Shown: one piece after another, positions 2,754 through 37,755 of the stretch
Layout of the letters: every line of letters begins with the position of its first letter
How positions within the stretch are numbered: the stretch's first letter is position 1
IMG/VR virus record: IMGVR_UViG_3300049215_000840
Location: 1 to 37,755 of that record
Source of the DNA: a virus
Length of the DNA: 37,755 nucleotides
Strand: one strand, 5' to 3'
The notes under the pieces: generated by a model
Database searches by the model: none
Seen by the model: only the letters and a program-made list of their open reading frames with translations
What the model was told of the DNA's origin: nothing
Position numbers and translations under genes: made by a program

Positions 2754-3155
2754 TTAGTCCGCGCGGCAGATCGTGACCTCGACCAATCCGTCCTTCGGAT
2801 CGGCGATCATTGAGAATGCGGCGCGGGATAGATCGATCACCCGCCCCTTGTCCACCAGGTCGAAGTCCGGCCCGCGGTCGGTAACAACGACCAGGACTTC
2901 CCGGTCACCCCTTGTGACCAGCAGGACGGCGCCGATGGCATAATCCCAGGTCGCGCAGGTCAGCGCGTCCGGGTCGAATGGCTTGCCGTTGGCCATCAGC
3001 CGGCCGCGGTAGCTCTCGCCGTACCAGCTCGCCATGCCCCTTCGGCTGCGCACGGCCTCGATCGCATCCTTGGCCTTGCAGCAGATAGCGGCGCAGAGGA
3101 TAAGCACGAATAGCCCCAAAAGCCCGAGGATCTCACTCTTGCTGTTCGGCTTCAT
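2754..3155 (-). CDS. RlpA-like double-psi beta-barrel protein, membrane-anchored
   Basis: A 133-aa protein. Residues 9-27 form an N-terminal hydrophobic segment containing several cysteines (LLGLFVLILCAAICC), which serves as a signal or membrane anchor. The RlpA signature follows: 'MASWYGESYRGRLMANGKPFD' at about 41-61 and 'VTDRGP' at 92-97, then 'RVIDLSRAAF' at 105-114. RlpA-type domains cleave naked peptidoglycan glycan strands. The conserved Asp of the DRG motif (D93) and a Glu in the first motif (E48) are present. The usual 'T-A-H' strand reads TCATWDYAIG here, so activity is not certain. There is no SPOR domain, so it is shorter than cellular RlpA. It overlaps the signal-peptidase-like gene by an ATGA. 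It may act in cell-wall opening or exit. Confidence 0.8.
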   Translation of the reverse strand: MKPNSKSEILGLLGLFVLILCAAICCKAKDAIEAVRSRRGMASWYGESYRGRLMANGKPFDPDALTCATWDYAIGAVLLVTRGDREVLVVVTDRGPDFDLVDKGRVIDLSRAAFSMIADPKDGLVEVTICRAD

Positions 3156-3628
3156 GATTGGTGGACATAGAAGACGGCCACCACCCGGCCGATCAGGTTG
3201 GCGTCGGTGACTTCCGCCGAGTCCGGATAGAGGTTGTTATCGCCGCGGGTCCACCAGCCATGGGCAGTCTTTTCAAAGACTCGGTGGGCGACGGCATGGC
3301 CAGGGGCGAAGCGAAAGACGATGAAGTCGCCCTTGGAAAGGTCGGCGGCTGGGATCTGCTCGCAGACGACTACGAAATTCCTCGGGCATGTTGGCAGCAT
3401 CGAGGTCCCTGAGACCGGAAGAGCGAAGAACCTTCGATGGGTGGCGATCTGCAGCTGGATTGCGACAAAGCTGGCCGAATTCAGAGCCTGCTCGGCCGTT
3501 AGAGTGCTTCCCGGCTGGATTGTCGTCCAATAGGACCGGGGAGCCGCGGCAGCGTCCGCCACAAAGCAAGCCATGGCCGCGCAGAGTAGAGCGCGAGCGA
3601 AGGCTGACTTTGTGCCGGCGAGCCGCAT
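3152..3628 (-). CDS. SipW-like S26 signal peptidase
   Basis: A 158-aa protein with an N-terminal signal or anchor (residues 8-29, ARALLCAAMACFVADAAAA). The core has the S26 box 'PVSGTSMLPT' with the likely nucleophile S76, then 'LSKGDFIVFRF' and 'AVAHRVFEK' with H115. 'GWWTRGDNNLYPDS' with D130 follows, and the closing motif is 'LIGRVVAVFY'. The His in place of the bacterial general-base Lys, together with the 'RGDNN' motif, marks the SipW/archaeal/ER type of signal peptidase with a Ser-His(-Asp) arrangement. Processing of exported phage proteins is one inferred role; several late gene products carry signal peptides. It is translationally coupled to the RlpA-like gene and starts 4 bp after the Gam-like gene. 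Confidence 0.8.
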   Translation of the reverse strand: MRLAGTKSAFARALLCAAMACFVADAAAAPRSYWTTIQPGSTLTAEQALNSASFVAIQLQIATHRRFFALPVSGTSMLPTCPRNFVVVCEQIPAADLSKGDFIVFRFAPGHAVAHRVFEKTAHGWWTRGDNNLYPDSAEVTDANLIGRVVAVFYVHQS

Positions 3629-4679: not shown

Positions 4680-5876
4680 CTACTTGCCCCAGCCGGACTC
4701 CGGGATCTCGGCCTGGCCGAGGATCGCGAAGTGGGCGACGAGGAAGTCATGCCAGGACGGCTCGGTGCGTTGGGTGTCGGCCGCGCGATCGTAGGCCATC
4801 CGGATCCGCTCGATGATCGCGGTGATGCCGTGCTCGTTGGCGAGCTGCTTCAGGGCAGCGATCGGGGAGTCGGCGACGTTCCGGTCGACCTGGATCACCT
4901 CATTGCGGTCGGCCCAGGGGAGACTATGGCTCTCGACGATCGCGCGGACGTCTGCGACGGTCGGGGCGGTGCCGAGGTTGACCTTGAGGACCCCGCGCCG
5001 GAAGACCTGCATCAGCTCCCGCTTGCGCTCCTGCTCGGCGCGCTGGTAGCCGAGATCCGTGTAGGAGAGCACCAGGCCGAAGTGCTTGGCGTCCCAGATC
5101 CGGCGGAGCTGCTCCATGCAGGCGAAGAAGGATCCGCGCCGGTAGACGTTGGCCAGAAGGTGGACTTCGTCGAAAATGACGACCATGTCTGGGGTGAGAG
5201 CCTTCGTGATCCGCTCGATCAGGTCGGGGGTGTTCGCGTTCGGGGAAATCCCGAGCTTGGCCGCCCAAGCCTGCAGGAGGCCGCGCAGGCCGTTGACCGC
5301 GGCGATCTCGACCAGGACGGTCTTGCCATGGTTGAAATCGATGCAGTTCTGCTTGAAGGCTTCGGTCTTACCGATCTGCGAGGCGCCAAAGATCATCACC
5401 GGGCGCCGGCTCTTCCGGGCCTGGTCGATCGCCCAATAGATGCGCTTGACGGTCGGTGTGGTGACGAACTCCTGGCGCCCCATGCGGGCCCGCTGGATCT
5501 CCAGCCGGCGGAAGTCGCGGATCTCCTTGAGGAGCTTCTGCGGGGCATCGAGGAGCAACTTGGTCTCGGGGTGCCGGTACTTCCCGGAATAGAGCTTATA
5601 GATCGTGTTCGAGTCGTAGCCGACGCGGTCGCAGAACTCCTCGAAGCGGATCGGGTGCGCCGGGTCGATGCACCAGACGAAGGCCCAGCGGAGGAGCTCC
5701 TTCGCCTCGGGCGACATATAGGCGATGTTCGACTGGACGGCGTCGGCCGAGAATCTCCAGGTCGATTTGACGGTGTCGCCCTGGTTGACCAGGGCGCGGG
5801 CCGCTTGGGTGGCTGCGGAGTCAGCGGACTGAGGTTGATTTCCGGCCGCGGATGCTGTTGGTGTGTCTGTGACCAT
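4680..5876 (-). CDS. B: MuB-like transposition target-DNA ATPase
   Basis: A 398-aa AAA+ ATPase. Walker A is GASQIGKT at 164-171 and Walker B is MVVIFDE at 231-237, followed by HLLANVYRRG. A conserved arginine-rich segment (EQERKRELMQVFRRGV, about 281-296) could hold the sensor/Arg-finger residues. Residues 60-115 form an HTH-like N-terminal domain (DRVGYDSNTIYKLYSGKY) similar to that of MuB. In Mu, B polymerises on DNA with ATP, selects the target and activates A. It is longer than Mu B (about 312 aa) because of an N-terminal Ala/Gln-rich tail and a longer C-terminus. An AGGAG lies about 10 nt before the start. The gene directly follows A after a 74-bp gap containing a strong hairpin. Confidence 0.9.
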   Translation of the reverse strand: MVTDTPTASAAGNQPQSADSAATQAARALVNQGDTVKSTWRFSADAVQSNIAYMSPEAKELLRWAFVWCIDPAHPIRFEEFCDRVGYDSNTIYKLYSGKYRHPETKLLLDAPQKLLKEIRDFRRLEIQRARMGRQEFVTTPTVKRIYWAIDQARKSRRPVMIFGASQIGKTEAFKQNCIDFNHGKTVLVEIAAVNGLRGLLQAWAAKLGISPNANTPDLIERITKALTPDMVVIFDEVHLLANVYRRGSFFACMEQLRRIWDAKHFGLVLSYTDLGYQRAEQERKRELMQVFRRGVLKVNLGTAPTVADVRAIVESHSLPWADRNEVIQVDRNVADSPIAALKQLANEHGITAIIERIRMAYDRAADTQRTEPSWHDFLVAHFAILGQAEIPESGWGK

Positions 5877-5950: not shown

Positions 5951-8068
5951 TTAAAAGATCTTCGTGGCGTCGAGGTCCTCGGATTGCTGCAGTGCCTCGC
6001 GCAGCTGGGCCTTGCGGTCGCTGGCCGAGGCATCGGAGGCGATCCCGGCCGCCAGGGCGTCGGCGGCGGCCGCGTGGCGCACCTGGGCGCCCGGCGCGGC
6101 CGTGGCGAGGCGCGAGGTGATTCCGGCCCGCGGCGTCGGGTCGGCGGTCGGCGCCTGCAGCCCCCAGGCGGTCAGCTTGGCGACGTTTGCGGCCTTCATT
6201 TCCGCGAGGGCCCGGTCCTCGTCGGCGTGGCGGGCGCGCACCGGGGCGAGGACGTGCTTGGTGATCAGCCGGGTGATCTCGCCCTGCTCGATCGCGATTG
6301 CCTCGCGGTTGCGGATATCGACGGCGCCGCGGCGATTGACCGGGCCGACATAGCGGCCATCCGGCAGCGTGACGTAGAGGCGATTCGGCTGGGCGGGATC
6401 GAAGTAGCCGAGGAGGTCGGTCCCCTCCGGCAGCTTCATCGCCGGTGAGTCCGCGTCCGCGAAGGTGTAGCCCTCGGCCAGGTGGGTGAAGGTGATCTTG
6501 TGATTCTCGACCTTGCACCGCTTCGGCGTGAGGAGGAGGAGCGCGAGCGCGTGCTCGGCCGGCTTCACCCAGGAGACGCCGGCGGTCAGTCTGGCCCACC
6601 TCTCACGCGGGCTTTCACGGCGCGGCATCGGCTGCAGGTTCTGGACGATCTCGCGGGGCAGCCGGTGTGCCTGCGCCTCGGTGACGCAGCCAGACCCATC
6701 GGGGAGTGCGTAATCGAAGACCTCCTCGAAGCCTTGCATCCTGTGCTGCGTCCGGTTCTCCAAGAAGTCGAAGACCCGATGGAAGGCCGCGAGCGCATCC
6801 TCAAAATGCCAGAACGAAGTGTGCAGCTGGCTGCGCTGCTCGTCGGTCAGGCCCTCGGTTTCGAGGAGGTTCTGGGCGTAGAGGAGACGAGCCTCCAGGT
6901 CGCCGGGCTTGAGCTGGTAGGTTGCGCCCTTCTGCCCGGCGAATGCGCCGGCCTGGTTCCAGGCCGCGTTGAAGGTGCTCTCGATCCAGCCTTTCTCCCA
7001 GGGCTTGCCGCCGCGCTCGATGAAGCCGTTCGCGAGAACCTTGTCGGCCAGAAGTCCGGTCCGGGCGACCTGGACGCCGAGCAGCGCCTGGAGCATGGCC
7101 TCGACGTCCGAGCTGATGGCTGCGGTTGCGTTCTCGCAGAGGATTGTCACCCCCCAGTCCTTGGGCAGCCCGAACTCGGTGAAGATCGAATGGAGGAGCC
7201 CCTGGACGTCGGCGCGGGTGATCGCCTGCCGGCGCCCTTCATCGGTCTTGAAACGGGGTTTCAGGCCCAGGGCAACCCGCCGGCGTGTCGCGACGTCGAG
7301 CGCGAGGAGGCCGGTGCAGGTGCAGATCTCGTAGCGGCCAGTTTCCGGGTGCCGGGCTTGGACCATGATGTCGGTCTCGAAGTCGTCGATCACGATCAGC
7401 TCCAGCGGCCGGAGAGAGCTCGTGTCGCGGATCAGATGCGGCAGGTATGGCTTGGCCGCTGCCAGTCCGCGCCGCGCCAGCTTGCGCTCGGCCTTCGATG
7501 ATTGCTTCGTGTAGAGGTTGCTCTGAGACCAGCCCCGCGGAAAGAATCCGAACGGATAGCGCTCGGGCAGGTCGCGTTCGGGGAACTGGGTCTGGAAGTA
7601 GGTCGCCCAGGTGCCATATCCGGGGATCGAGACGCCGCGAGTCCACTCGTCGCGGATCTGCATCATCACCGCTCGGGCGGGATTCTCGCGCTTGTTCTGC
7701 TCGGTGCGCTTCCGGAAAAACTCGACGAACTCTGCTGGCACCGCTTCCGGGCCCTTATACTGCGGGACCAGAACGCGCCAGTCGCGCGTCTTCCTGTAGG
7801 CGTAATAGAGGGTCTTGAGGTTGCCCGCGCTGAATCCCCGGCCGGGGTATTCGATGGCGAGGCGGTGGCAAGTGGCGACGACACCGTCCTTCGAGCCTGC
7901 GATCTCCTCGAAGAGACGTATCAGCACAGCGATCCGCTGGCGCTGCTCCTCGGTCGTCTTGGTATGGAACTCCTCGTGATGGGCGAGCGGTATGATCTCG
8001 GCCAGAGCGGCCGGGATCAGCTGGGACTGCTCAGCGGGAGCTAGGGCGGAAGAGTCGGAGGAATTCAT
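5951..8068 (-). CDS. A: MuA-like DDE transposase
   Basis: A 705-aa protein, close to Mu A (663 aa). The N-terminal 200 residues are helical and basic (TTEEQRQRIAVLIRLFEEI; NLKTLYYAYRKTRDW) and fit DNA-binding subdomains. The RNase H-like catalytic core starts at 'LELIVIDDFETD' (D228/D229, first acidic position). It continues with 'LALDVATRRRVAL', then 'VTILCENATAAIS', where the second acidic position is E312 and not Asp. The third is E363 in 'GKPWEKGWIESTFN'. A beta-barrel-like domain follows (about 480-570, with 'PEGTDLLGYFDPAQPNRLYV' and 'DGRYVGPV'), then a charged C-terminus that could be the MuB/ClpX-contact region. It would carry out strand transfer of phage ends into target DNA for integration and replicative transposition. 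The end-binding sites lie outside the window. Confidence 0.92.
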   Translation of the reverse strand: MNSSDSSALAPAEQSQLIPAALAEIIPLAHHEEFHTKTTEEQRQRIAVLIRLFEEIAGSKDGVVATCHRLAIEYPGRGFSAGNLKTLYYAYRKTRDWRVLVPQYKGPEAVPAEFVEFFRKRTEQNKRENPARAVMMQIRDEWTRGVSIPGYGTWATYFQTQFPERDLPERYPFGFFPRGWSQSNLYTKQSSKAERKLARRGLAAAKPYLPHLIRDTSSLRPLELIVIDDFETDIMVQARHPETGRYEICTCTGLLALDVATRRRVALGLKPRFKTDEGRRQAITRADVQGLLHSIFTEFGLPKDWGVTILCENATAAISSDVEAMLQALLGVQVARTGLLADKVLANGFIERGGKPWEKGWIESTFNAAWNQAGAFAGQKGATYQLKPGDLEARLLYAQNLLETEGLTDEQRSQLHTSFWHFEDALAAFHRVFDFLENRTQHRMQGFEEVFDYALPDGSGCVTEAQAHRLPREIVQNLQPMPRRESPRERWARLTAGVSWVKPAEHALALLLLTPKRCKVENHKITFTHLAEGYTFADADSPAMKLPEGTDLLGYFDPAQPNRLYVTLPDGRYVGPVNRRGAVDIRNREAIAIEQGEITRLITKHVLAPVRARHADEDRALAEMKAANVAKLTAWGLQAPTADPTPRAGITSRLATAAPGAQVRHAAAADALAAGIASDASASDRKAQLREALQQSEDLDATKIF

Positions 8069-11474: not shown

Positions 11475-12068
11475 ATGAAGAAAATCCTCGTATCGATCAT
11501 CGCTCTCGGCCTCGCCGGCTGCGCTTCAGTCCCGTCCTCGACAACGTCGGCGCCGGCGGCCGCCTCAACGTCCGCTCCGTCGCCGCTCGTCTTGGCGCTG
11601 GAAAACCCGAACAATATCGGCAAGGCCACGCAAGCCGGGGTGCAGTTGGCAGCGACCGCATTTCTCGCCCGCAATCCGACGTATGCCGCCGAATTGGACG
11701 CGGCCGCCGATGCCCTCCTGGTGTTCGCAGCCGGCAGTCCCTCGACCGTCTCGCAGGCCGACATCGCCTCGGTCCTGGCCAAGACCTCGATCAGCACGAC
11801 GACCCAGACCGAGGTCGCGAGCTATGCGACCTCCGCCCAGAGTCTCTTCGAGAGCAGCTTCAATGTCAGCTTTCCAACGCTGAAGCCGAATTACGCGATC
11901 TATTTGGACGCCGTCGCGAACGGCCTCTTTGGCGCGACCGGAAAGACCTCCTCGGAGGTGACGCTCCCGGTCATTCCCTGGCCGCCGGCGCCCGCGCCGG
12001 CCGCGGCCTCCCCGGCGTCTGCACCAGTTCCCGCGCAGACCGACGCGATCGAAGTCCCGGCCTCCTGA
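11475..12068 (+). CDS. Lipoprotein of unknown function
   Basis: A 197-aa lipoprotein from the ATG at 11475, 2 bp after the stop of the previous gene. Signal peptide MKKILVSIIALGLAGC has lipobox G-L-A-G-C with C16 lipidated. A Ser/Thr/Ala-rich linker follows. Then comes a helical domain: 'NNIGKATQAGVQLAATAFLARNPTYAAELDAAADALLVFA', 'STVSQADIASVLAKTS', and 'PNYAIYLDAVANGLFGATG'. The tail is Pro/Ala-rich (PWPPAPAPAAASPASAPVP). The middle domain repeats a helix-turn-helix pattern with 'Y---LDA-A--L' twice. It is probably anchored to an outer membrane. The function is unknown; superinfection exclusion or lysis are candidates from context only. Confidence 0.7.
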   Translation: MKKILVSIIALGLAGCASVPSSTTSAPAAASTSAPSPLVLALENPNNIGKATQAGVQLAATAFLARNPTYAAELDAAADALLVFAAGSPSTVSQADIASVLAKTSISTTTQTEVASYATSAQSLFESSFNVSFPTLKPNYAIYLDAVANGLFGATGKTSSEVTLPVIPWPPAPAPAAASPASAPVPAQTDAIEVPAS

Positions 12069-18600: not shown

Positions 18601-18780
18601 ATGCCTCCTCCTCCCGCCAAGTCCTCAACGCCCGATTACGACAAGATCCTCACGCAGAAGGTCGCCGCCGGGCTGCCCCTCGCCCAAGCCAAGGAAGTCA
18701 TCGCCCGCCAGAAGAAGCGCGATGCCAAGGTCGCGGCCCTCGCCGCCGCCAAGGCCGCGCTCGAATCAGCGGACGCCTGA
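18601..18780 (+). CDS. Small head-region protein
   Basis: A 59-aa protein starting at the ATG at 18601, with a Pro-rich N-terminus (MPPPPAKSSTPDYDKILTQK) and one long helix (VAAGLPLAQAKEVIARQKKRDAKVAALAAAKAALES). The 'LTQKVAAGLPLAQAKEVIARQ' pattern reads as a small helical phage protein, perhaps a head accessory. It lies between the scaffold and the cement protein, with an A/C-rich leader and no Shine-Dalgarno sequence. Confidence 0.6.
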   Translation: MPPPPAKSSTPDYDKILTQKVAAGLPLAQAKEVIARQKKRDAKVAALAAAKAALESADA

Positions 18781-18835
18781 TCCCGGTCCTCTCCACCTGT
18801 CCTCTCCGCACGTTCTCTCAACTCAGAATCCATCC

Positions 18836-19417
18836 ATGAATCTCATCCTCGCTTTCATCTCCGCCGCGCTCCTGCTGGCCATCGTGGTCCGCTGGGCGAT
18901 GGGCTTCCGTCAACCGCCGTTCCTCTTCCTCGCGTCCCGCTTGCCGATCCTGCGTCGGCGCGGCGTCTTCGCCCTGGCCAACGTGGCGGAAGGCCAGAAC
19001 CTTCACGGCCAAAAGACGTTTATCTCCGATGTCACGACCGCCGCGCGATTCCTGATCGCCAAGACCGGGAGTGCCTCGACCAATGTTGCCGTCGCCACCA
19101 ACGCGGATTTTCCGATCGGCGTGATGACCGACCAGGTCGGGACGGCGGGCGACCCGGTTGCGGTCTCGCTCTTCGGTGCCTCAGAGGGCACGCAGAAGGT
19201 GAGCGTCCAGAGCGTCGTCAACTTCGGCGACTGGCTCGTCGTCGACCCGGCCAATCCGGGCTATGCGCTGACGAAGCCCGCCGCGAACGGCACCTACTGG
19301 GTCTTCGGCAAGGCCCTGAATCTCACGGCGAGCGCGGCCGGCGACATCATCGAGTTCACGCCCTGCCTGCCGCGGCAGATTACGATCGCCGGCGGCACGC
19401 CGACGGTCACGGCCTAA
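18836..19417 (+). CDS. Capsid cement/decoration-like protein with N-terminal TM helix
   Basis: A 193-aa protein from the ATG at 18836. Residues 1-24 (MNLILAFISAALLLAIVVRW) form a strong hydrophobic helix followed by a basic stretch (RLPILRRRG, about 35-43). The rest is a beta domain of the DUF2190/decoration type: 'VAVATNADFPIGVMTDQVGTAGDPVAVSLFG', 'VVNFGDWLVVDPANPG', 'ANGTYWVFGKALNLTASAAGDIIEFTPCLP'. That part caps capsomers in related phages. A membrane helix on a cement protein is unusual and might be cleaved. The gene lies directly before the major capsid gene. Confidence 0.75.
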   Translation: MNLILAFISAALLLAIVVRWAMGFRQPPFLFLASRLPILRRRGVFALANVAEGQNLHGQKTFISDVTTAARFLIAKTGSASTNVAVATNADFPIGVMTDQVGTAGDPVAVSLFGASEGTQKVSVQSVVNFGDWLVVDPANPGYALTKPAANGTYWVFGKALNLTASAAGDIIEFTPCLPRQITIAGGTPTVTA

Positions 19418-21073: not shown

Positions 21074-22291
21074 ATGCTCCTCGCCCTGGCTATGATCTTC
21101 ACCACTCCAATGCCGCTTGCCGCCGCAGTGGACCGCCTGGAGTCCAAGACTCCAATCGCGGCCGACCTGACCTCGGATCAGTGGGCGCAGATCGAGCTCG
21201 GCCTGTCCGATCGGGCATTTTTCTCCTCGCGGGTGAACGACATCGGAGTCGTCACCGAGATGCAGTCGCGGATCGACGACGCCCTTTCGCTCGCCCGGCG
21301 AGATGGCGGGGCCTTCATGGACCGGAGCCGCTTCATCGCCGACCTGCGCGGGATCCTCGGGGCCGAGCCGGGCGACTCCGGAGATCTGACGGACATCACC
21401 TCCTCGGCTCGGTTGGGTCTCATCTATGACTTCAACACCGAGGAGGCAATGGAGTATGGCCGATGGGTCGCTCGGCAGAATCCTGCGATCCTCGATGCCT
21501 TCCCCTGCAACGAATTGGTCCGCGTCGAAGCCCGCGAGGTCCCGCGCGGATATCGTCGCGGCGCCAAGGGTCGACTGGTCGAGGTTCCCGAGGAGAGCTG
21601 GCCCGCGCGCTGGGACCGCGCCGGCGGCGACTTCGTTGGCGGCCGAATGATCGCCCTCAAGAACGATCCGATCTGGATCCGGATCTCCCGCTTTGGGCGC
21701 CCCTGGCCGCCTTTCGACTTCAATTCCGGTATGGGATTGGCCGACGTCAGCCGCGACGAGGCTGAGCAGCTCGGCGTCATTCAGCCTCACGACCTGGTTC
21801 CCAAGCCGATGCAGATGGACTTCAACCACAACCTGCAGGCCAGCATCCCGGATGCGACCCCCGCGGTCATGGAGTCCATGAAACGGATCTTCGGCGACCA
21901 GGTCGCCGTTGCCAAGGACGGGACCGTGGCTTGGCAGGGTCAGCAGCTGGCTGCCCTCTACAAGCGGGCCCTGGGCGGCCAGGAGGCCGATTGGACGCTC
22001 GACCTGGGCGAGGCCACCCCCGAGGCGATTGAGGCCGGCGGAGACGATCTGGCGGACTCTCGCCTGCAGCTGACGGCCGACGACCTGCGCACCTCCGGGG
22101 CCCTGTCTGTCCTCGATGCGCAGCTGATCCCGCATATCTGGCGGGATCCCGACCAGGTCGAGACCGGGCCGGCCGGCGAGCTCGTCTTCACCAAGAGCTT
22201 TCTCGGCCGGAAGGCCACGGCGACCTTCGACCAGGTCGACGGCGCTTTGACCCTCGCGAGTCTGACGATCGACCAGGAGGACACTCCATGA
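21074..22291 (+). CDS. MuF-like head morphogenesis protein
   Basis: A 405-aa protein starting 3 bp after the previous stop. The core pattern is 'SSARLGLIYDFNTEEAMEYGRWVARQNPAILDAFP' (about 115-149), then 'WDRAGGDFVGGRMIALKNDPIWIRISRFGRPWPPFDFNSGMGLADVSRDEAEQLG'. This is the MuF/SPP1 gp7 family arrangement of an 'IY-TN' helix, then W-x-G, and 'PPFDF-SG'. The C-terminal end ('LIPHIWRDPDQVET', 'ELVFTKSFLGRKATATFD') resembles the small nuclease-like domains often fused to MuF proteins, but this is only a hint. The first 19 residues are hydrophobic (LLALAMIFTTPMPLAAA), possibly because the true start is further in. MuF proteins enter the head and are ejected with the DNA. Confidence 0.72.
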   Translation: MLLALAMIFTTPMPLAAAVDRLESKTPIAADLTSDQWAQIELGLSDRAFFSSRVNDIGVVTEMQSRIDDALSLARRDGGAFMDRSRFIADLRGILGAEPGDSGDLTDITSSARLGLIYDFNTEEAMEYGRWVARQNPAILDAFPCNELVRVEAREVPRGYRRGAKGRLVEVPEESWPARWDRAGGDFVGGRMIALKNDPIWIRISRFGRPWPPFDFNSGMGLADVSRDEAEQLGVIQPHDLVPKPMQMDFNHNLQASIPDATPAVMESMKRIFGDQVAVAKDGTVAWQGQQLAALYKRALGGQEADWTLDLGEATPEAIEAGGDDLADSRLQLTADDLRTSGALSVLDAQLIPHIWRDPDQVETGPAGELVFTKSFLGRKATATFDQVDGALTLASLTIDQEDTP

Positions 22292-23387: not shown

Positions 23388-23930
23388 ATGAATCAAAATC
23401 GCATCGTCACAGGTTCGCAATCCACGTTCTTCCCGAACGGGGTCGCCTTCACCGTTCCCGCGGCCGGCACCGCGGGGGTCGCATCGAAGCCCGGCATTGC
23501 CGACGCCGGCTGGATCGCCATCGGCCCGGTCAAGTGGGCGAAGTCGCCGAAGAACAAGACCGAGGAGTACATGACGCCGCAGCCTGGCGCCTACGTCCAG
23601 TCCGACGAGATCGTCCTCTCGAAGGGGCTCGTTCTCAAGGGCAAGCTGGAGATGCAGTCGAACATCGCGGTCCAGCTGCAGCAGGCGACCGCACTGCTCC
23701 CCAACTCCCCGACCGCCGGCGGGGTGTTCAACCCGCTGTCCGGATCGCCCTGCATCAAGGGCTGGCTCCACGTCCAGGAGTACGACCAGAACAACAACCT
23801 GGTGAACGTCGTCGACTACTGGGTCTCCCTCAAGGCGAGCGGCGACACCAACAACGACGACAAGGCCACCGAGACGCCGGTCGAGGCGACCGTCCTCTAC
23901 TCGACGCTCAACGTCGGCAACCTGAGCTGA
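23388..23930 (+). CDS. Major tail tube protein
   Basis: A 180-aa beta-rich protein. Examples are 'RIVTGSQSTFFPNGVAFTVP', 'GWIAIGPVKWAKSPKNKTEEYM', 'KGLVLKGKLEMQSNIAVQLQQAT' and 'CIKGWLHVQEYDQNNNLVNVVDYWVSLKASGD'. It resembles tail tube subunits in having two beta sheets around 'G-W---G-V' and a long beta arm. It lies between the terminator and the tape measure block and is followed by a strong hairpin, as expected for a highly made protein. No sheath gene accompanies it, which supports a siphovirus tail. Confidence 0.8.
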   Translation: MNQNRIVTGSQSTFFPNGVAFTVPAAGTAGVASKPGIADAGWIAIGPVKWAKSPKNKTEEYMTPQPGAYVQSDEIVLSKGLVLKGKLEMQSNIAVQLQQATALLPNSPTAGGVFNPLSGSPCIKGWLHVQEYDQNNNLVNVVDYWVSLKASGDTNNDDKATETPVEATVLYSTLNVGNLS

Positions 23931-23997: not shown

Positions 23998-24771
23998 ATG
24001 TCAACTCCCCCGCAGACGATCAACTACCCATCGCTCGATGCGCCGACCGAGACGGCGCCCGGCACGATCGCACCTGCGGCGCTGACCGGCACCGCACCGG
24101 GCGAGACCAATCCTGCGGCCCCGACCAACGTCGGACCGAGCCAGACCAACCCAGCCGCTCTCACCGGGACGGCGCCAGGGGAGACCAATCCGGCCGCGCT
24201 GTCCGAGACGGCGCCCGGCCAGACCAACCCAGCCGGTCTCACCGAGACGGCGCCAGGGGAGACCAATCCGGCCGCGCTGTCCGAGACGGCGCCCGGCCAG
24301 ACCAACCCAGCCGGTCTCACCGAGACGGCGCCCGGCCATACAAACCCAGCCGCTCTCACCGGGACGGCGCCAGGGGAGACCAATCCGGCCGCGCTGTCCG
24401 AGACGGCGCCCGGCCAGACCAACCCAGCCGGTCTCACCGAGACGGCGCCCGGCACGATCGCACCTGCGGCGATTTCGTCGGTGCCTCCGGTCACCGAGGC
24501 TTTCCCTCCCGGCATTCAATCACTCCCGACAAACATGCCCGCCATCTTCACTCCCGCCTTCACCAACCTGACCGGCGACGGCCCCTGCCTGGCTTCGCTC
24601 AACGCTTCGACGGCCGACGCGGCCGCCGGCAAGATCCTGACCGGAACCAACAACGGCGCCATCGTGAACTATCAAGTCTGCGCCGGCACCGATGCGCAGG
24701 CGCTGCCTGGGATCGTTCGCCCGGCGAACTTCGATCCCGTGAATAACCCGGTCGTCTTCGTCCAGCGCTGA
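23998..24771 (+). CDS. Repeat-rich protein with 13-aa units
   Basis: A 257-aa protein. After a 16-residue leader come eleven 13-residue repeats (about residues 17-159) of the form TETAPGQTNPAGL or TGTAPGETNPAAL; the third is divergent. A non-repeat C-terminus follows (NMPAIFTPAFTNLTGDGPCLASLN, then 'YQVCAGTDAQALPGIVRPANFDP'). The repeats are Pro/Thr/Gly-rich and should make an extended, flexible or fibrous stalk. The C-terminal part ends like a small globular cap with two Cys. It sits directly before a fibre-like gene. A virion decoration or stalk role is inferred. The near-identical DNA of the units indicates recent expansion. Confidence 0.65.
   Translation: MSTPPQTINYPSLDAPTETAPGTIAPAALTGTAPGETNPAAPTNVGPSQTNPAALTGTAPGETNPAALSETAPGQTNPAGLTETAPGETNPAALSETAPGQTNPAGLTETAPGHTNPAALTGTAPGETNPAALSETAPGQTNPAGLTETAPGTIAPAAISSVPPVTEAFPPGIQSLPTNMPAIFTPAFTNLTGDGPCLASLNASTADAAAGKILTGTNNGAIVNYQVCAGTDAQALPGIVRPANFDPVNNPVVFVQR
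24046..24474 (+). repeat. Eleven 39-bp tandem coding repeats
   Basis: Eleven units of 39 bp (13 codons). Units 4-7 and 8-10 form a higher-order 78-bp pattern, with one unit using CAGGGGAGACC and the next CCGGCCAGACC, and long stretches identical at DNA level. Because the unit is 39 bp, changes of copy number keep the frame. Confidence 0.85.
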
Positions 24772-24781
24772 TTTTGATCCC

Positions 24782-27202
24782 ATGAAAAAGCTCCTTATCT
24801 TCTGCGCCTTCGCGACCGCGGCCTTCGGCGTAAACACGCCGAATGGACAGTTCCCATACAATCCGAACACCGGGAATGCAGGGGCGGCGCTCAACTTCAC
24901 GACCGGCCAGCTGACGATCAATGGCAACTCGCTCGACACGCTCGCAAGCGACTTGACCTATATTCCGCTGACGGACGCCTCCAACACCTTCACGGCTGCG
25001 CAGACCGTCCCATCGCTCGCCATCGACGGAGCTGCCGGCTTGGGGTTTATTTCGCTCCCGTCGCAGAGCTCCGCGCCGGCATCGCTCTCGGGGAACATCA
25101 GGCTCTATTCCGACCTCAACAACAAATTGGCCTGGATCGGCGCCAGCGGGTTCGTCCGCAGCTTCGACGGCACGATCACCGCGAATCGATCCTATTCACT
25201 GCCGGACGTCAGCGGGAATGTCGTTGTCGACGATGCGACCCAGACGCTGACCAACAAGTCAATCGCGGCCTCGGAGATCACCTCTGGAACTCTGAGCTCC
25301 TCGCTTCTCCCGACGCCGACGACTTCCGCCCTTGGAGGCATCGAGGCGATCAATGCCGTTTCCCATCAATGGATCAGCTATATCGATGCGTCGGGAATCC
25401 CCCACCTGGCGCAGCCAGCCTTCACCGACATCAGCGGATCCGTCGCCTCTACCCAGATGCCGGCCTTGACCGGCGACGTGACCATGAGCGCCGGGAGCAC
25501 GACGACCACCGTTGGCCATGTCAACGGCGTCAGCTATGGGACGGCCCCGAGCACGAACACCGTCCCGGTCGTCACTGCCGCAAATAACATCACTTATGAG
25601 GCGGTCCCGAACGCCGCCCTGGCGTATTCCTCGATCACGATAGCCGGAACCAGCACGGCCCTGGGAAGCTCGATCACCCTGGACACGATCACTGGCCTTT
25701 CCACTACCGGCCTGGTCAAGCGGACTGGCGCCAACACTCTGGCGATCGCCACCGCAGGCACCGACTACGCCCCGGCGGCCGGCGACTCCAGCATTGCCAC
25801 CGTCGGCACAGTCACGGCAGGCACCTGGCAGGGCACCGCTATCTCCGGCTCGTACCTGGCGGGTCCGCATAATTTCACCAGCTTGACCTCGGGGGCACTA
25901 CTCGTCGGCGCCGGTACGAGCCCGATCACCGCGAGCGCAGTTTCACTCTCGGGGAATGCGATCACCGCCCTCAATTCCGTTACCGCCGCCGCCTCGACCG
26001 ATTTCACGGCATTCGGGGGCAGCTCCGGGGCCGAGCTCGATCTTGGAAACGGAACTAACGGCGCGGTCTCGATCACTCCAGCCGGGACTGGGGGGTTCAC
26101 CGTCACCATGGCGAACGGATCGGCGCGGCCTGGGAACATCATCAACAACGGCTCAGGCCAGGGCGTGCTGAATTTCGAGAACACCAATTCGGCGGGCTAT
26201 TCCGAAATCGACTTCCTGAACAACAGCGCCGTTTCCGAGGCTTTTATCGGCTTCGCGAATTCGGGAGCGTCCTTTGATCCCTCGAAGTTCTACGCCTTGG
26301 GCCGGTCCGGGGTGACGATGGTCATCGGGGGAGCCCAAGACTCTCAGATCACCCTGACGGGCTCTTCCGTCACCTTCGACTCCAGCAGCCCGACGACCTT
26401 TCAGGCGACGACTACTTCCACGTCGACGACGACCGGGGCGGTTATCGTCGACGGGGGCCTTGGCGTCTTCGGAAACATTAACGATGGCGGGTCGGTCACG
26501 ATTTCCAGTAGCAGCTCCGGCAGCGGAGTTCTTTACCTCAACCAAAGCGCGAACAGCCACGCGGCTCAAATCGTATTTCAGACTGGTGGATCGACCAATT
26601 GGTACGTTGGCATGAACGCTGACGAGACTGGCAACTATGAAATATCCAATAGCAGCGGCGGCCTGGTCTGGTTCGTCACGAATTCAACCAACCAGATTCA
26701 AATTGGAAGTTCTTCTTCTGCTTCAGCCTGGGGCGCTAACGGGATTCAAGAATGGCATCAGGGGAAAACCTATACGGATTCCTCCACCGGAGCTTCATCG
26801 ACCGCATCTCTTGAAACTTTCACGTCATTCTCCAGCCCCACGCTCTCCGCCACCAATACCGGCGTCACAACGACGACTGCAGCGACGGTCTACGTCGCTG
26901 GTGCTCCGATTCCGGGCACCAACCAGACGATCACGAACCCATATGCTCTGGATATCGCCAGCGGAGCGTCTTTTTTCGGGGGCAATGTCCTCATCAATGG
27001 CAGCCTGAGCCTTGGATCTCCCGAGATAATTAAGACTTACCTGACGTCCGGACTGCCCTCCGCATCGGCGAACACCTTTGGGCTAGCAGCGGTGTCCGAC
27101 TCGACGAGTTCTCCGGGCACCAACATAGGGTCGGCCCCAACGGGGGGCGGCTCCTATTTCCGAATCGTCTACTCCACAGGCAGCTCGTGGCTGCAGCTCT
27201 GA
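24782..27202 (+). CDS. Fibre-like protein with signal peptide
   Basis: An 806-aa protein, Ser/Thr/Gly/Asn-rich and almost purely beta, of the long-fibre type: 'YSLPDVSGNVVVDDATQTLTNKSI' (the 'TLTNK' fibre motif), 'TALTGDVTMSAGSTTTTVG' and 'TGLVKRTGANTLAIA'. Further along, 'GTVTAGTWQGTAI' recurs in tail-fibre shafts and the end is 'SSPGTNIGSAPTGGGSYFRIVYS'. The first 16 residues, MKKLLIFCAFATAAFG, are a credible signal peptide, which is unusual for a virion protein made in the cytoplasm. No chaperone domain is seen at the C-terminus. It may be a host-binding fibre, a spike-like protein, or an exported protein. It lies between the tail tube and the tail assembly chaperone genes. Confidence 0.7.
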   Translation: MKKLLIFCAFATAAFGVNTPNGQFPYNPNTGNAGAALNFTTGQLTINGNSLDTLASDLTYIPLTDASNTFTAAQTVPSLAIDGAAGLGFISLPSQSSAPASLSGNIRLYSDLNNKLAWIGASGFVRSFDGTITANRSYSLPDVSGNVVVDDATQTLTNKSIAASEITSGTLSSSLLPTPTTSALGGIEAINAVSHQWISYIDASGIPHLAQPAFTDISGSVASTQMPALTGDVTMSAGSTTTTVGHVNGVSYGTAPSTNTVPVVTAANNITYEAVPNAALAYSSITIAGTSTALGSSITLDTITGLSTTGLVKRTGANTLAIATAGTDYAPAAGDSSIATVGTVTAGTWQGTAISGSYLAGPHNFTSLTSGALLVGAGTSPITASAVSLSGNAITALNSVTAAASTDFTAFGGSSGAELDLGNGTNGAVSITPAGTGGFTVTMANGSARPGNIINNGSGQGVLNFENTNSAGYSEIDFLNNSAVSEAFIGFANSGASFDPSKFYALGRSGVTMVIGGAQDSQITLTGSSVTFDSSSPTTFQATTTSTSTTTGAVIVDGGLGVFGNINDGGSVTISSSSSGSGVLYLNQSANSHAAQIVFQTGGSTNWYVGMNADETGNYEISNSSGGLVWFVTNSTNQIQIGSSSSASAWGANGIQEWHQGKTYTDSSTGASSTASLETFTSFSSPTLSATNTGVTTTTAATVYVAGAPIPGTNQTITNPYALDIASGASFFGGNVLINGSLSLGSPEIIKTYLTSGLPSASANTFGLAAVSDSTSSPGTNIGSAPTGGGSYFRIVYSTGSSWLQL

Positions 27203-27211
27203 TTTTCTCCA

Positions 27212-27691
27212 ATGAAACGCATCACCTTCCTCTTCCTCGCGCTCGCCGCGAGTCTATCCGCCCAGGCCGCGCCGAAAGGCATTCAACTGACCGTCAACCA
27301 GGAGGTCCGCCTCTATTCAGCGATTCACGATGGGCTCGCCGGGGCCCAGACGATCACCAAGGTCAACGGCGTCGATTCCGCGGTTCTGCTGCCCTATACG
27401 CTCTCGGCGGCTACGCGATTCACCCTGGCCGACGACCTGGCGCTTCTCCAGCCGCAGGTCGAAGCAGCCCAGCGGATGCCGGGCGAGCTGCTCCACCAGC
27501 TCGATCCATCCGGGAAGGGGATCCCGAATACCGACCCGCGTGCCGCCGAGTATGTCAAGCAGCTGAACGAGCTCGGCGATCGAGTGGAATCCCTCCCGCT
27601 GGAGCAGATCAGCAAATCGGACTTGAACCTCGATTCAAACAACATTTCCCCGGCCGTCCTGGCCGATCTTCGGCCCATTCTCAAACCATGA
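27212..27691 (+). CDS. Secreted hypothetical protein
   Basis: A 159-aa protein with signal peptide MKRITFLFLALAASLSAQAA (cleavage near residue 20). The mature part is alpha-helical with 'IQLTVNQEVRLYSAIHDGLAG', 'TRFTLADDLALLQPQVEAAQRMPGELLHQLD' and 'SKSDLNLDSNNISPAVLADLRPILKP'. The spacing suggests a small helical periplasmic protein. It is coupled to the next gene by ATGA. No family is recognised. It is the second of three consecutive genes with signal peptides. Confidence 0.65.
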   Translation: MKRITFLFLALAASLSAQAAPKGIQLTVNQEVRLYSAIHDGLAGAQTITKVNGVDSAVLLPYTLSAATRFTLADDLALLQPQVEAAQRMPGELLHQLDPSGKGIPNTDPRAAEYVKQLNELGDRVESLPLEQISKSDLNLDSNNISPAVLADLRPILKP

Positions 27692-28053
27692 AGACGTTCC
27701 TCGCCATCCTGCTCTCCGCGGCCGTCCTTTCGGTCGCAGCGGTCGCCCAGGCGCCCGCCATCTCCCAATCCTCCGAATATCCCTGGAGGCTTCAGGTGGA
27801 CTTCGCCTATTCGGGGGGATCTATCACGGCGGCCCCGGTGACCCAGTTCTATCGATCGGACGTCACCCAGGGGACGGTGATCATCGCTCAGCCGGCATCC
27901 AATCCGGCAAGCCTGACCGTCGACCTGGTCGCCAACGGCGCGAAGACTGTAACCGTCAACGGCGCGACCTACACCTACAACCAGGCAGTGCAGATCCTGA
28001 CGGCCATCTTCGCCCAAGAGCGAGCCGCACAGCTCGCCGCACCCAGCAGCTGA
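27688..28053 (+). CDS. Secreted hypothetical protein
   Basis: A 121-aa protein with signal peptide MKTFLAILLSAAVLSVAAVAQA (cleavage near residue 22). The mature part is beta-rich: 'YPWRLQVDFAYSGGSITAAPVTQFY', 'GTVIIAQPASNPASLTVDLV', 'AKTVTVNGATYTYNQAVQIL'. A C-terminal helix ends in 'ERAAQLAAPSS'. ATGA overlap with the gene before. Small, beta-sandwich-like and probably periplasmic or surface-exposed. No family is recognised. Confidence 0.62.
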   Translation: MKTFLAILLSAAVLSVAAVAQAPAISQSSEYPWRLQVDFAYSGGSITAAPVTQFYRSDVTQGTVIIAQPASNPASLTVDLVANGAKTVTVNGATYTYNQAVQILTAIFAQERAAQLAAPSS

Positions 28054-28076: not shown

Positions 28077-28592
28077 ATGTCCAACCCTCTCCCTCCTCCT
28101 GCCAACGCCACGCCGAGCACACTCGTCAACGATCTCCGCTTCCAGGTCAAATACGCCAAAAACGGCCTGGAGGAGATGGTCACGGTCAAGGAGCTCGCCG
28201 TGACGGACCTCTATCAATTTCTGGAGCATATGTCCCAGGGAAAGACTCCAGCCCTGGTCGGCCTTTGCACCGGCCGCAACAGGGCCTGGGTCGATTCCCT
28301 CGAACTGCGTTCCTTCACCCAGCTTGCCCAGAAGTGCGTGAAGGTAAATTTCCAGCGGGCGATGGTGATAGCGGAGGAGACCGTCGCCGGGATGACAGCA
28401 GCTCCGCTCTTGCTGAAGCTTGGCCAGACCCTGGGCCTGACGGCTTCCCTGAGTTCGGCGAGCGAGAGCCTCCAAGCGACCAGGAAATCACCCGAGAGGT
28501 CCTCTCACGATGGGGAGGCTGGTGCCGACAGATCGCCCGAGCCTGCTGCCTCGGAATCTGCGGCGGCGATTGGGACCGCTGCATCCGGCTGA
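28077..28592 (+). CDS. Tail assembly chaperone (gpG-like)
   Basis: A 171-aa protein. The N-terminal part has 'LVNDLRFQVKYAKNGLEEMVTVKELAVTDLYQFLEHMSQGKTPALVGLCTG' and 'FTQLAQKCVKVNFQRAMVIAEETV'. The C-terminal segment after about residue 130 is Ser/Pro/Ala-rich and looks like a shadow of the overlapping frame. Immediately upstream of a tape measure gene the expected product is the G protein of lambda type, which keeps the tape measure soluble during tail assembly. A -1 frame overlaps from within the gene to the tape measure start, as in the G/GT pair. The leader is C-rich and lacks a Shine-Dalgarno sequence. Confidence 0.65.
   Translation: MSNPLPPPANATPSTLVNDLRFQVKYAKNGLEEMVTVKELAVTDLYQFLEHMSQGKTPALVGLCTGRNRAWVDSLELRSFTQLAQKCVKVNFQRAMVIAEETVAGMTAAPLLLKLGQTLGLTASLSSASESLQATRKSPERSSHDGEAGADRSPEPAASESAAAIGTAASG
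28346..28388 (+). promoter_or_regulatory. Candidate -1 frameshift signal
   Basis: The heptamer AAATTTC (28346-28352) is in the correct phase for frame 0 (GTA AAT TTC, so A-AAT-TTC). It is followed after 5 nt by a stem-loop with arms GGCGATGG (28358-28365) and CCGTCGCC (28381-28388), eight pairs including one U-G wobble. A slip here would join the first 91 codons or so of the chaperone gene to the -1 frame that reads to 28744. The layout is that of a classical frameshift site. Confidence 0.45.
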
Positions 28593-34455: not shown

Positions 34456-37400
34456 ATGGGAAGCTCCGGCGGCAAAGGAGGCAGCTCCTCCTCCCAGCAG
34501 AACCTCAATTATTATGGCAACCTTGTCGGAGCCATTGGTTGGGGGCCGCTCGACTGGCTGACCGCGATCATCTATAACGGAAGCTACCTCTGGCAATGCG
34601 CCGATGGGGTGCCTTTGGACCTGACGGCCGACGGGGTTGTCAATGCGGAGGGTTATATCGACCTGACAGGCGCTCTCCTCGATCCGACCGTGATCGGACC
34701 TGGCGGATATTTCCGCCTTTATCGCGGGCTCCCGAACCAGGCTGCTGACGGGGGCGCGCCTGGCCATCCACCTTACCTCGACACAATCATCGTCGTCGGG
34801 GTGAATGTCTTCTTCGGAGAGAATTCAGGCAGTGCTCCGAACTTCCAGATCATCGGTGGGCGCCTTCCGCGCATCGATACCTCGATCGTGGCTGCGGAGG
34901 ACAACATCGCGAATGACCGGCAGATCAATCCGGTCGCGGCATTGGCGGAGCTCCTGACGGACGACCGGGGTCTCGGGCTTTCGATTGATCAGCTTGATTC
35001 CGCCAGCTGGCAGGCTGCCGGCCATTGGGTTGCGCAAGACCAGGCGCATATGGACTTCTGTTTCTGTTCCCCACTGGTCAACGGGCAGGATGCTTTTAGG
35101 GAGATCGTTAAAACGTTTTTGGACCCGTTCAATGGTTACCTCCAATGGACCCCGGAGGGGAAGCTAGGCTGCTATATTTACGAGTGGGGGACCAATCCCG
35201 GAGGGCTGCCGACCTTCGACGGCCGCCATTGGATCGAAGACCCTGAGATCGAGGACGGCGATTGGCAGGACGTGAAGACGGAGATCATGGTCACGTTCAC
35301 CGATCGGGCCTATGAGTTCCAGACCAACTCCGTGCTGGTTCCCAATGTCCGGGCGCAAATTATCCGTCAGCTCGACGATCAAGGCAGGCTTGATCGGTCG
35401 AATATCACCCGCCAGGCGCAGGCGCAGAGCCAGGGCTTGGAATACAATCGGCGGATCGGCTCGGCTCCAGGATCCGGCACGATCAAGATCCGGGGGCCAT
35501 TCGCTGCCGGCCTTTCCGCTGGCTCAAAAATCCTGGTCAATGACAATCCCGAGCCAGCGGAATCAGGGGAAGCCCAGCTCTGCCGGGTCGAGAAGATCGA
35601 GCAGGACCAGAGCGACCAGGTCACACTCACTTTAACGACGGATCCGCTCCTGCCTGCCACGGCCTATTCGCCCGCCTGGATTTCCACCCTCCCTGGGACA
35701 CCCGTCGTCGCTCCGACCTGCTCGCCGATCCCTCATTGCCTTGGCCTTGCCCTTCCCCCGCTAGGATGGGGATATCCTCCGTCGGTCGGTTTTCTGGCCA
35801 CCCGGCCGAATTCGCAAGTTCTGGGATTTCATGTCCTTTTTGGAAGCGACCCCGATGGGGCGTTCGCCGACCTGGGGCTGCAGGTTGGATTCGCTGTTCG
35901 CTGTGGCCTGATCTCCGATATCGCCAGCGGGGATGCTACGATCCGGCTGCAACTGCTTGACGGAGCGAATGGGCCGGATGCTTACCTTGCGGCCAATACC
36001 CCAGGCGGAAACCTGGTCGAGGCCCAGGACAACGTTCTGCTCGTTGTGCTGGCGCAACTTGATGAATATGGGCGAGTCGCGATCGACGAGAACAATGATC
36101 CGATCATGGAGTTCTCCTCGGTCATCCAGAGGAGCGCCGTCGACTCCGATACCTTCGACTATTCGGTCCTTCGGGGCGTCCTCGGCACCTCTCCAGCTGC
36201 CTGGAACACCGGCGTTGCCGCCTGGATTGTTCCATTTGGCAACCTGGTGCCCTGGACCCATCCGCTATTTGGGTCCCTCCTTGGCTCGACCGGCTATTTC
36301 AAGCTCATCGATTACACCTCGAACGCGACCGACGAGAGCGATCCATCGCCAGAGGCGGACATCGTCTTTCCGGGATCCTATTCCCAAGCGCCTGGGTCCT
36401 CGGGCCCGGACGATGGGGTCACCCCAAACCCGGTGACTGGCGTCGGGATTACGACAGGGGTGGAGATGATCGTTCTTACCTGGTCGAACGAGACCAATAC
36501 CCCATTGGCCGCGACTCTCATCTATGAGTCCGACACTGACGTTATTCCAGATGAGCCGACCCTGTCAGTAGCTGCGCCGCAGGCATTCTTGTTTCGGAAT
36601 GGGGTGATCGAAGGGACGACCCGTTACTATTGGCTCCAGGAGCAGGCCGTTAGCGGTCGTCTCAGCTCTATCGTAGGTCCATTCTCAGCGACCGTCGAGA
36701 CCTGGCCGGTTGTCGCCGATATCGAGGCCACAATCACTGCCGAGACGGATGCCAGGATCTTGGCCGATACTACCGAGGCGGACACCCGCGCGACGGCCGA
36801 CGACGGCTTGGCGGCCGATATTTCAACAGAAGCCTCTGCTCGCGAGAGCGCCGATGGGACCCTTACCTCCAACCTTACGACTGAAGTCGCCGCCCGCGAA
36901 TCTGCTGATTCCTCCCTAGGAGCATCGATCACCGAGGAGGCAACTGCTCGGGAGACGGCCGACGATAGCTTGGCAGCCGAATATGTCCTTCAAGTTACTA
37001 CCGATGACGGCGGCGTCGAGCGGGTCGCTGGCTTCCGGATCACCAACCTCGGGGGTGCCGGCGGTTCCAGTGAATTTGTAGTCCAGGCCGACGTCTTTGC
37101 GGTCATCAATTCTGACGGCGACAGCGATAGCCAGGTCGCACCTTTTGCGATCGAGGGGGGGGTTGTCTACCTCAACACGGCAATGATCCAGGATGCCTCG
37201 ATCGTTGACGCGATGATTGGGTCCATGACCGCCGACAAGATCTCGGCCGGGACTATCGCGGCGGCTGTGGCTCTCGATTCCCCGCTTCTTTCAACCCTTG
37301 GGGCCGTCTATAACGACACCTTTGGGACATCGAGCTCCTTCCCAGCAACTGCTTCGCAGGTCAACTCCTGGAGCGGCAGCGCCTCGTCTTCGGCTTTGGA

Positions 37401-37755
37401 TTATATTGGCCCGATTTCGACTTTCTATGGATGGGCAACTGGCACTGGATTCGCCGACAACAGGTTCGCCAAGAGCACTCAGGTCTTCCTGGTGATCGCC
37501 TCTGGAAACTTCGGCCTTTATTCGAGCGGAGACGCAGGGAACGCCCAGCTTTGTTACCGGATCGACGGCGGAGCATGGATGGGGGTTGGCAGCAACACAG
37601 CTGTCCAAAATTTCGGCTTTTTCCTGAATGCCTTTCCAATCCAGATCACCGGCCTAACTGGGTCCGAGCAGATCGATTTTGGCATTCAATACTTCACTTC
37701 CGGGGGTGCCGTTCTGCTTACCGTCGATCTTTGCGCCCTCGCCTTCAACCTCTAG
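34456..37755 (+). CDS. J-like tail tip/host-specificity protein
   Basis: A 1099-aa protein, the last gene of the window. The N-terminus is Ser/Gly-rich (MGSSGGKGGSSSSQQ), then typical tip domains: 'NLVGAIGWGPLDWLTAIIYNG', 'PVAALAELLTDDRGLGLSIDQLD', 'FREIVKTFLDPFNGYLQWTPEGKLGCYIYEWG', 'SVIQRSAVDSDTFDYSVLRGVLGTS'. A fibronectin-like domain lies around residues 655-755 (MIVLTWSNETNTPLAATLIYESDTDV). A coiled repeat (about 757-840, 'EASARESADGTL--NLTTEVAARESADSSL') leads to the C-terminal part with 'DASIVDAMIGSMTADKISAGTI' and a beta-rich receptor end. It would bind the host and hold the tip. It stops at the final bases of the window. Confidence 0.88.
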   Translation: MGSSGGKGGSSSSQQNLNYYGNLVGAIGWGPLDWLTAIIYNGSYLWQCADGVPLDLTADGVVNAEGYIDLTGALLDPTVIGPGGYFRLYRGLPNQAADGGAPGHPPYLDTIIVVGVNVFFGENSGSAPNFQIIGGRLPRIDTSIVAAEDNIANDRQINPVAALAELLTDDRGLGLSIDQLDSASWQAAGHWVAQDQAHMDFCFCSPLVNGQDAFREIVKTFLDPFNGYLQWTPEGKLGCYIYEWGTNPGGLPTFDGRHWIEDPEIEDGDWQDVKTEIMVTFTDRAYEFQTNSVLVPNVRAQIIRQLDDQGRLDRSNITRQAQAQSQGLEYNRRIGSAPGSGTIKIRGPFAAGLSAGSKILVNDNPEPAESGEAQLCRVEKIEQDQSDQVTLTLTTDPLLPATAYSPAWISTLPGTPVVAPTCSPIPHCLGLALPPLGWGYPPSVGFLATRPNSQVLGFHVLFGSDPDGAFADLGLQVGFAVRCGLISDIASGDATIRLQLLDGANGPDAYLAANTPGGNLVEAQDNVLLVVLAQLDEYGRVAIDENNDPIMEFSSVIQRSAVDSDTFDYSVLRGVLGTSPAAWNTGVAAWIVPFGNLVPWTHPLFGSLLGSTGYFKLIDYTSNATDESDPSPEADIVFPGSYSQAPGSSGPDDGVTPNPVTGVGITTGVEMIVLTWSNETNTPLAATLIYESDTDVIPDEPTLSVAAPQAFLFRNGVIEGTTRYYWLQEQAVSGRLSSIVGPFSATVETWPVVADIEATITAETDARILADTTEADTRATADDGLAADISTEASARESADGTLTSNLTTEVAARESADSSLGASITEEATARETADDSLAAEYVLQVTTDDGGVERVAGFRITNLGGAGGSSEFVVQADVFAVINSDGDSDSQVAPFAIEGGVVYLNTAMIQDASIVDAMIGSMTADKISAGTIAAAVALDSPLLSTLGAVYNDTFGTSSSFPATASQVNSWSGSASSSALDYIGPISTFYGWATGTGFADNRFAKSTQVFLVIASGNFGLYSSGDAGNAQLCYRIDGGAWMGVGSNTAVQNFGFFLNAFPIQITGLTGSEQIDFGIQYFTSGGAVLLTVDLCALAFNL

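Follow-up and report, generated by a model that had tools for sequence, protein, structure and literature searches.

Why genes for signal-peptide proteins lie inside the tail module of a Mu-like phage is the question that this locus raises. Virion proteins, receptor-binding proteins among them, are normally made without a signal peptide, which is a usual rather than a strictly defining property. The preliminary description of the locus had proposed an unusual block of four genes between the tail tube and the tail assembly chaperone, encoding a protein of 13-residue repeats, an 806-aa fibre-like protein with a signal peptide and two small secreted proteins. We think it likely that this Mu-like siphophage carries here a cassette for host recognition (tail fibres) which is exchanged between relatives, and that its 806-aa protein is the fibre that binds the receptor.

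The window, by which we mean the whole stretch of 37,755 nt that was analysed, is a 37.8-kb IMG/VR contig of an uncultured Mu-like phage. Its portal is of the Mu type (PF06074, 6.8e-53), a Mu Gam-like protein is present (9.9e-9), and two ORFs, at 5951 to 8068 and 4680 to 5876, were assigned by reading to the transposition genes MuA and MuB, which they match in size and position. The MuA-like ORF of 705 aa found no relative among 50,697 phage records, and two scans of bacterial genomes returned no relative. The tail module is of the siphophage type, with a tape-measure gene and a tail-tip protein (PF09327, 4.7e-19). The final base of the record is also the end of its final ORF, as would be the case if a prophage had been cut at the edge of a gene. 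A lipoprotein-like gene that precedes the packaging genes (11481 to 12068; MKKILVSIIALGLAGC) has a 62% identical copy in the prophage G005. All four genes of the block were found where the preliminary description had placed them, and the features of the slot, its borders and the tail tip are as follows.

23388 to 23930, plus strand: putative tail tube protein, bordering the slot on the left; identified from its position and conservation, with no match in PHROGs.
23998 to 24771, plus strand: repeat protein of 257 aa, proposed adaptor, first slot gene in all five phages.
24052 to 24480, plus strand: 11 tandem 13-residue units of the repeat protein (consensus TAPGxTNPAALTE; residues 19 to 161).
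24535 to 24768, plus strand: C-terminal domain of the repeat protein, 51 to 57% identical in L014, L015 and L036.
24782 to 27202, plus strand: tail-fibre-like protein of 806 aa with a signal-peptide-like N terminus, proposed receptor-binding fibre.
24782 to 24829, plus strand: signal-peptide segment of the fibre, MKKLLIFCAFATAAFG, followed by VNTPNG, of which NT is kept in three fibres.
25007 to 25225, plus strand: fibre residues 76 to 148, 68% identical to the L014 fibre.
26711 to 27193, plus strand: fibre residues 644 to 804, 45% identical to the C terminus of the L007 fibre-like protein.
27212 to 27691, plus strand: 159-aa protein with a signal peptide; its signal-bearing L014 homologue, of 149 aa, is 26 to 28% identical.
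27688 to 28053, plus strand: 121-aa protein with a signal peptide; its L014 homologue, of 136 aa, is 72% identical over the mature part.
28077 to 28592, plus strand: tail assembly chaperone (phrog_1442, 5e-4), bordering the slot on the right.
34456 to 37755: tail-tip protein (PF09327).

The tail tube is 57 to 72% identical to the tubes of L014, L015 and L016. From the repeat protein to the chaperone, genes are spaced by 10, 9, −4 and 23 nt, the overlap being the ATGA at 27688 to 27691 that had been read as coupling of the two small genes. The block contains no promoter-like site and no terminator-like site on the plus strand, and by spacing and promoter scan the slot is arranged as a member of an operon within the tail module. 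The repeats are also apparent in the DNA, which is 72% self-identical at a lag of 39 nt and 78% at a lag of 78 nt. None of the slot proteins, the 806-aa protein included, matched a family above threshold in Pfam, PHROGs or NCBIfam, and no Mtd, C-type-lectin or reverse transcriptase family was matched. Sequence searches of the PDB, for which the queries were the 806-aa fibre and profiles of the 159-aa and 121-aa proteins, gave nothing significant, and neither the fibre nor the small proteins nor the repeat-protein domain had a relative among the named phage records. AlphaFold2 gave no usable model for the 121-aa protein (pLDDT 47) or for the C-terminal domain of the repeat protein (pLDDT 59), which found its best viral fold match at E 0.58.

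What occupies the same slot in other phages is more informative. With the tail tube as query we found four close relatives, all of them metagenomic records and two of them nearly identical (L016 and L010), and a baseplate-hub profile found more distant ones. Their slots hold, in order:

L014: repeat protein of 143 aa; fibre of 587 aa with a signal peptide; proteins of 136 aa, 156 aa and 149 aa.
L015: repeat protein of 168 aa; fibre of 829 aa with a signal-like segment; no further gene.
L016 and L010: repeat protein of 97 aa; Mtd of 318 aa; template repeat; reverse transcriptase; a small gene; then either a 158-aa faintly signal-peptidase-like or a 183-aa lipoprotein-like protein.
L026: protein of 234 aa; fibre-like ORF of up to 2529 aa with no obvious signal; three small genes.
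L021/L027 and L024/L025: no gene or one small gene.

The slot is thus occupied in all four close relatives, with the repeat protein always first. The preliminary description had expected nothing or one small gene here in other phages, which is true of L021/L027 and L024/L025 but of neither the four close relatives nor L026. In two of the four, L014 and L015, the repeat protein is followed by a fibre whose N terminus is signal-like. Because L015 has a fibre and neither small protein, the 159-aa and 121-aa proteins are not obligate, and the phages with Mtd carry different small proteins. The 159-aa protein was suspected to be related to a 118-aa protein in the corresponding position of L026, but profile comparison did not bear this out. 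Elsewhere, L036 encodes a 145-aa protein (6788 to 7225) with the repeat-protein C-terminal domain and no 13-residue repeats; the gene follows a different set of tail genes, and the contig ends just behind it. Two further proteins, encoded at L014 13252 to 13722 and L010 6407 to 6958, are related to each other (28%, E 6e-10), and their Cys, GHA and DPQ/EPQ positions resemble those of a papain-type peptidase; the L010 copy is lipoprotein-like (LVTGC).

The identity of the adhesin in L016 and L010 suggests what the slot is for. Judged from sequence, the identification as Mtd is strong: the proteins match PF21916 (7.7e-20) and phrog_11262 (2.9e-98) and are 43% identical to Mtd of the Bordetella phage BPP-1 over residues 4 to 317. 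A complete diversity-generating retroelement (DGR) of Mtd, template repeat (TR) and reverse transcriptase (RVT_1, 2.2e-12) spans 1939 to 4593 in L016 and 7242 to 9896 in L010, corresponding to mtd, TR and brt of BPP-1. As in BPP-1, substitutions fall at template adenines, which account for 14 of 18 differences between template and variable repeat in L016 and 15 of 19 in L010; the four that remain in each phage are all at the 3' end of the region compared. The two target genes agree at 945 of 957 nt, and all 12 differences are inside the variable region. Two features depart from BPP-1. The window's own slot proteins are neither Mtd nor reverse transcriptase, and the Mtds of L016 and L010 begin at BPP-1 residue 59, lacking the first 58 residues, and are preceded by the repeat protein. 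The Mtd and repeat genes share 4 nt, and the late start together with this overlap would fit a repeat protein that replaces the missing N-terminal part. The C-terminal domain of the repeat protein is missing where the slot holds Mtd. Because two relatives carry an Mtd/DGR cassette at this place, we read the block as an interchangeable host-recognition module.

Where the fibre gene lies in other phages points the same way. In L027 and L025, distant relatives whose slot is empty, a candidate fibre gene follows the tip gene; that of L027 matches a tail-protein PHROG (4.2e-16) and that of L025 a PHROG of unknown function. Conversely, in two integrated prophages with a filled slot, G005 and G006, the tip gene is followed by no more than one small ORF (about 120 to 150 aa) before host genes begin (tRNA-Val and asd in G005, nadA in G006). 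Because these phages end after the tip gene, their slot gene is the only long fibre gene, and none other was found besides it and the tip protein. The complementary pattern, a candidate fibre after the tip where the slot is empty and none there in these two prophages with a filled slot, argues for a fibre cassette. Partial homology agrees, and with the slot contents of relatives it upholds the earlier view of a fibre-like protein in an unusual block: the long protein in the slot of L015 has matches to two tail-fibre PHROGs (3.5e-8 and 2.7e-7), and the C-terminal 160 residues of the window fibre resemble those of a modular, podophage-type (T7-type) fibre-like protein in L007. The N terminus of the L007 protein, by eye, is T7-type, whereas the window fibre has a signal peptide instead. 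As counterpoints, no family library recognises the 806-aa protein itself, and it may instead be the tail tip that binds the receptor.

Position, relatives and partial homology, then, would make the 806-aa protein the fibre that binds the receptor. The repeat protein is probably the shared first component, an adaptor or spacer that joins interchangeable receptor-binding parts to the tail. The signal peptide probably directs the fibre, at least in part, to the Sec pathway, in which case the fibre may fold extracytoplasmically and be added to virions at lysis or later; alternatively, the segment may be an uncleaved anchor. The 159-aa and 121-aa proteins would be accessory exported proteins, most likely residing in the cell envelope during infection, where they might, for example, mask the receptor against readsorption or superinfection.

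How much weight the signal peptides bear depends on how they were called. The rule was our own and not SignalP, calling for a positive n-region, an uncharged hydrophobic core and small residues at −3 and −1, and it was applied to start codons that we chose. By this rule, three of the four block proteins carry a signal, as had been claimed, and none of the 16 other late genes does. The N termini are MKKLLIFCAFATAAFG before V in the 806-aa protein, MKRITFLFLALAASLSAQA before A in the 159-aa protein and MKTFLAILLSAAVLSVAAVA before Q in the 121-aa protein. The rule also passes 6.5% of shuffled N termini and 6.7% of all ATG ORFs at eight loci, genes included. The signal segments resemble the rest of their genes in GC by codon position, and so the chosen starts look coding. 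The L014 fibre and the L014 homologues of the 121-aa and 159-aa proteins are likewise signal-bearing, and the Mtds of L016 and L010 have no signal by the rule. In L015, the signal-like segment lies about 28 residues past the first ATG, giving a long n-region, and the rule selects a different stretch. The window and L014 fibre bodies are 68% identical over 73 residues, and the L015 body shows nothing significant. Nevertheless, each of the three signal-bearing fibres has a hydrophobic signal-like segment and then [VT]-N-T. That fibres sharing little of their bodies keep the signal and the NT suggests a kept function. Export of the 806-aa protein is plausible, and the protein may also be cleaved and assembled outside the cytoplasm. 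Elsewhere in the window, the genes at 18722 to 19417 and 21074 to 22291 also have hydrophobic starts with upstream start codons (MNLILAFISAALLLAIVV... and MLLALAMIF...). Their starts may be wrong, which counsels caution for signal calls across the genome.

Membership in the virion and export are in some tension, because receptor-binding proteins are normally not exported and the Mtd of the same slot has no signal. One resolution, which we consider a possibility of secondary rank, is that the hydrophobic N terminus of a virion fibre only resembles a signal and is an uncleaved anchor by which the fibre docks to the tail or the repeat protein. Assembly of tailed virions takes place in the cytoplasm, the slot Mtd has neither a signal nor the first 58 BPP-1 residues, so that docking may involve the repeat protein, and the window ORFs at 18836 and 21074, read with upstream start codons, also show hydrophobic N-terminal stretches. 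Against an anchor, the segment is complete as a signal peptide (KK, an uncharged core, a small residue at −1), the conserved NT falls directly past the predicted cut, and the adjacent genes are signal-bearing as well. Our confidence in this alternative overlaps that in the preferred reading because both make the 806-aa protein a virion fibre and differ only on export. The boldest form of the preferred reading, a Sec-exported fibre that folds extracytoplasmically beside exported partners and is fitted at lysis to a 13-residue-repeat adaptor accepting either a fibre or Mtd, we hold to be doubtful.

An unlikely alternative takes all three signal-bearing proteins as an exported set outside the virion: the 806-aa protein would be a fibre-shaped decoy or adhesin that, with the small periplasmic proteins, masks the receptor, protects progeny and excludes other phages. 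All three proteins and their L014 homologues are signal-bearing, and there are precedents. Llp of phage T5 is a small periplasmic lipoprotein that blocks the site of the receptor-binding protein on FhuA (PMC9586334). Lom of lambda, which bears a signal, has its gene between those for the tail spike and the tail fibre (PMC12309495). By description, Llp and Cor of the T1 family resemble the window's small proteins as small envelope proteins tied to host recognition (PMC9586334); the latter, however, have no lipobox and no family match. An Llp- or Cor-like function may nevertheless apply to them by analogy. Lom, likened to the window proteins by signal and by gene position amid tail genes, differs in being an outer-membrane beta-barrel. 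Speaking against a wholly exported set, the slot elsewhere holds Mtd, a virion adhesin without a signal, and a non-virion counterpart of the 806-aa protein would leave the integrated relatives with no long fibre gene.

The preliminary description had further suggested that the phage matures these proteins with its own signal peptidase. The gene is real, and its neighborhood is as follows.

2754 to 3155, minus strand: DPBB/RlpA-like lytic transglycosylase with an N-terminal hydrophobic segment, a possible lysis or envelope enzyme; overlaps the next gene.
3152 to 3628, minus strand: signal peptidase I of the ER/archaeal type (TIGR02228, 58.7 bits against a cut-off of 51.85; Pfam S24, 2.9e-8).

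By eye, the peptidase has GTSMLP, AHRV and RGDNN, corresponding to what we take to be the signal peptidase I motifs, in which GxSMxP, HRV and GDN supply the catalytic Ser, His and Asp. It is rare, with a tblastn match in only 1 of the 50,697 named phage records, and our literature searches for phage-encoded signal peptidases found no paper. That it is dedicated to the three slot proteins is improbable. In favour of such a role are the TIGR02228 score, the motifs and a weakly similar protein in the L016 slot (32% over 63 aa, E 7e-4). The gene, however, adjoins the Mu Gam-like and DPBB genes on the minus strand, away from the late genes. Moreover, no TIGR02228 match was found in G005, a near-complete prophage that has the signal-bearing fibre, both small proteins and the DPBB gene (62% identical); in all, 15 of the 17 records searched, most of which are fragments, gave no match. 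Because G005 shows no match while carrying the same signal-bearing genes, a dedicated link, and with it the proposed role in maturation, is unsupported.

Finally, we consider it most improbable that the block is a moron, an island for lysogenic conversion that has its own control and nothing to do with the virion: it varies among relatives and its products look exported, but we rank this reading low because the block has no promoter-like site and no plus-strand terminator-like site, and moreover it is tightly packed with tail genes, the repeat gene comes first in five of five phages, and Mtd and its retroelement take the same place in relatives.

A modular host-recognition cassette is known, and what is unusual here is the export signal on the fibre. 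A parallel by description is Hankyphage, a transposable phage of Bacteroides in which a DGR diversifies the tail fibre (PMC12135933); L016 and L010 likewise pair a transposable phage with a DGR-diversified adhesin, whereas the window slot has no DGR. Under the cassette reading, a single slot in Mu-like phages alternates between a retroelement-diversified adhesin and signal-bearing fibres behind a common repeat protein, and it offers a ready system for studying how phages exchange their host-recognition parts. If export of the fibre is true, it would revise the view that the virion proteins of tailed phages are made and assembled only in the cytoplasm.
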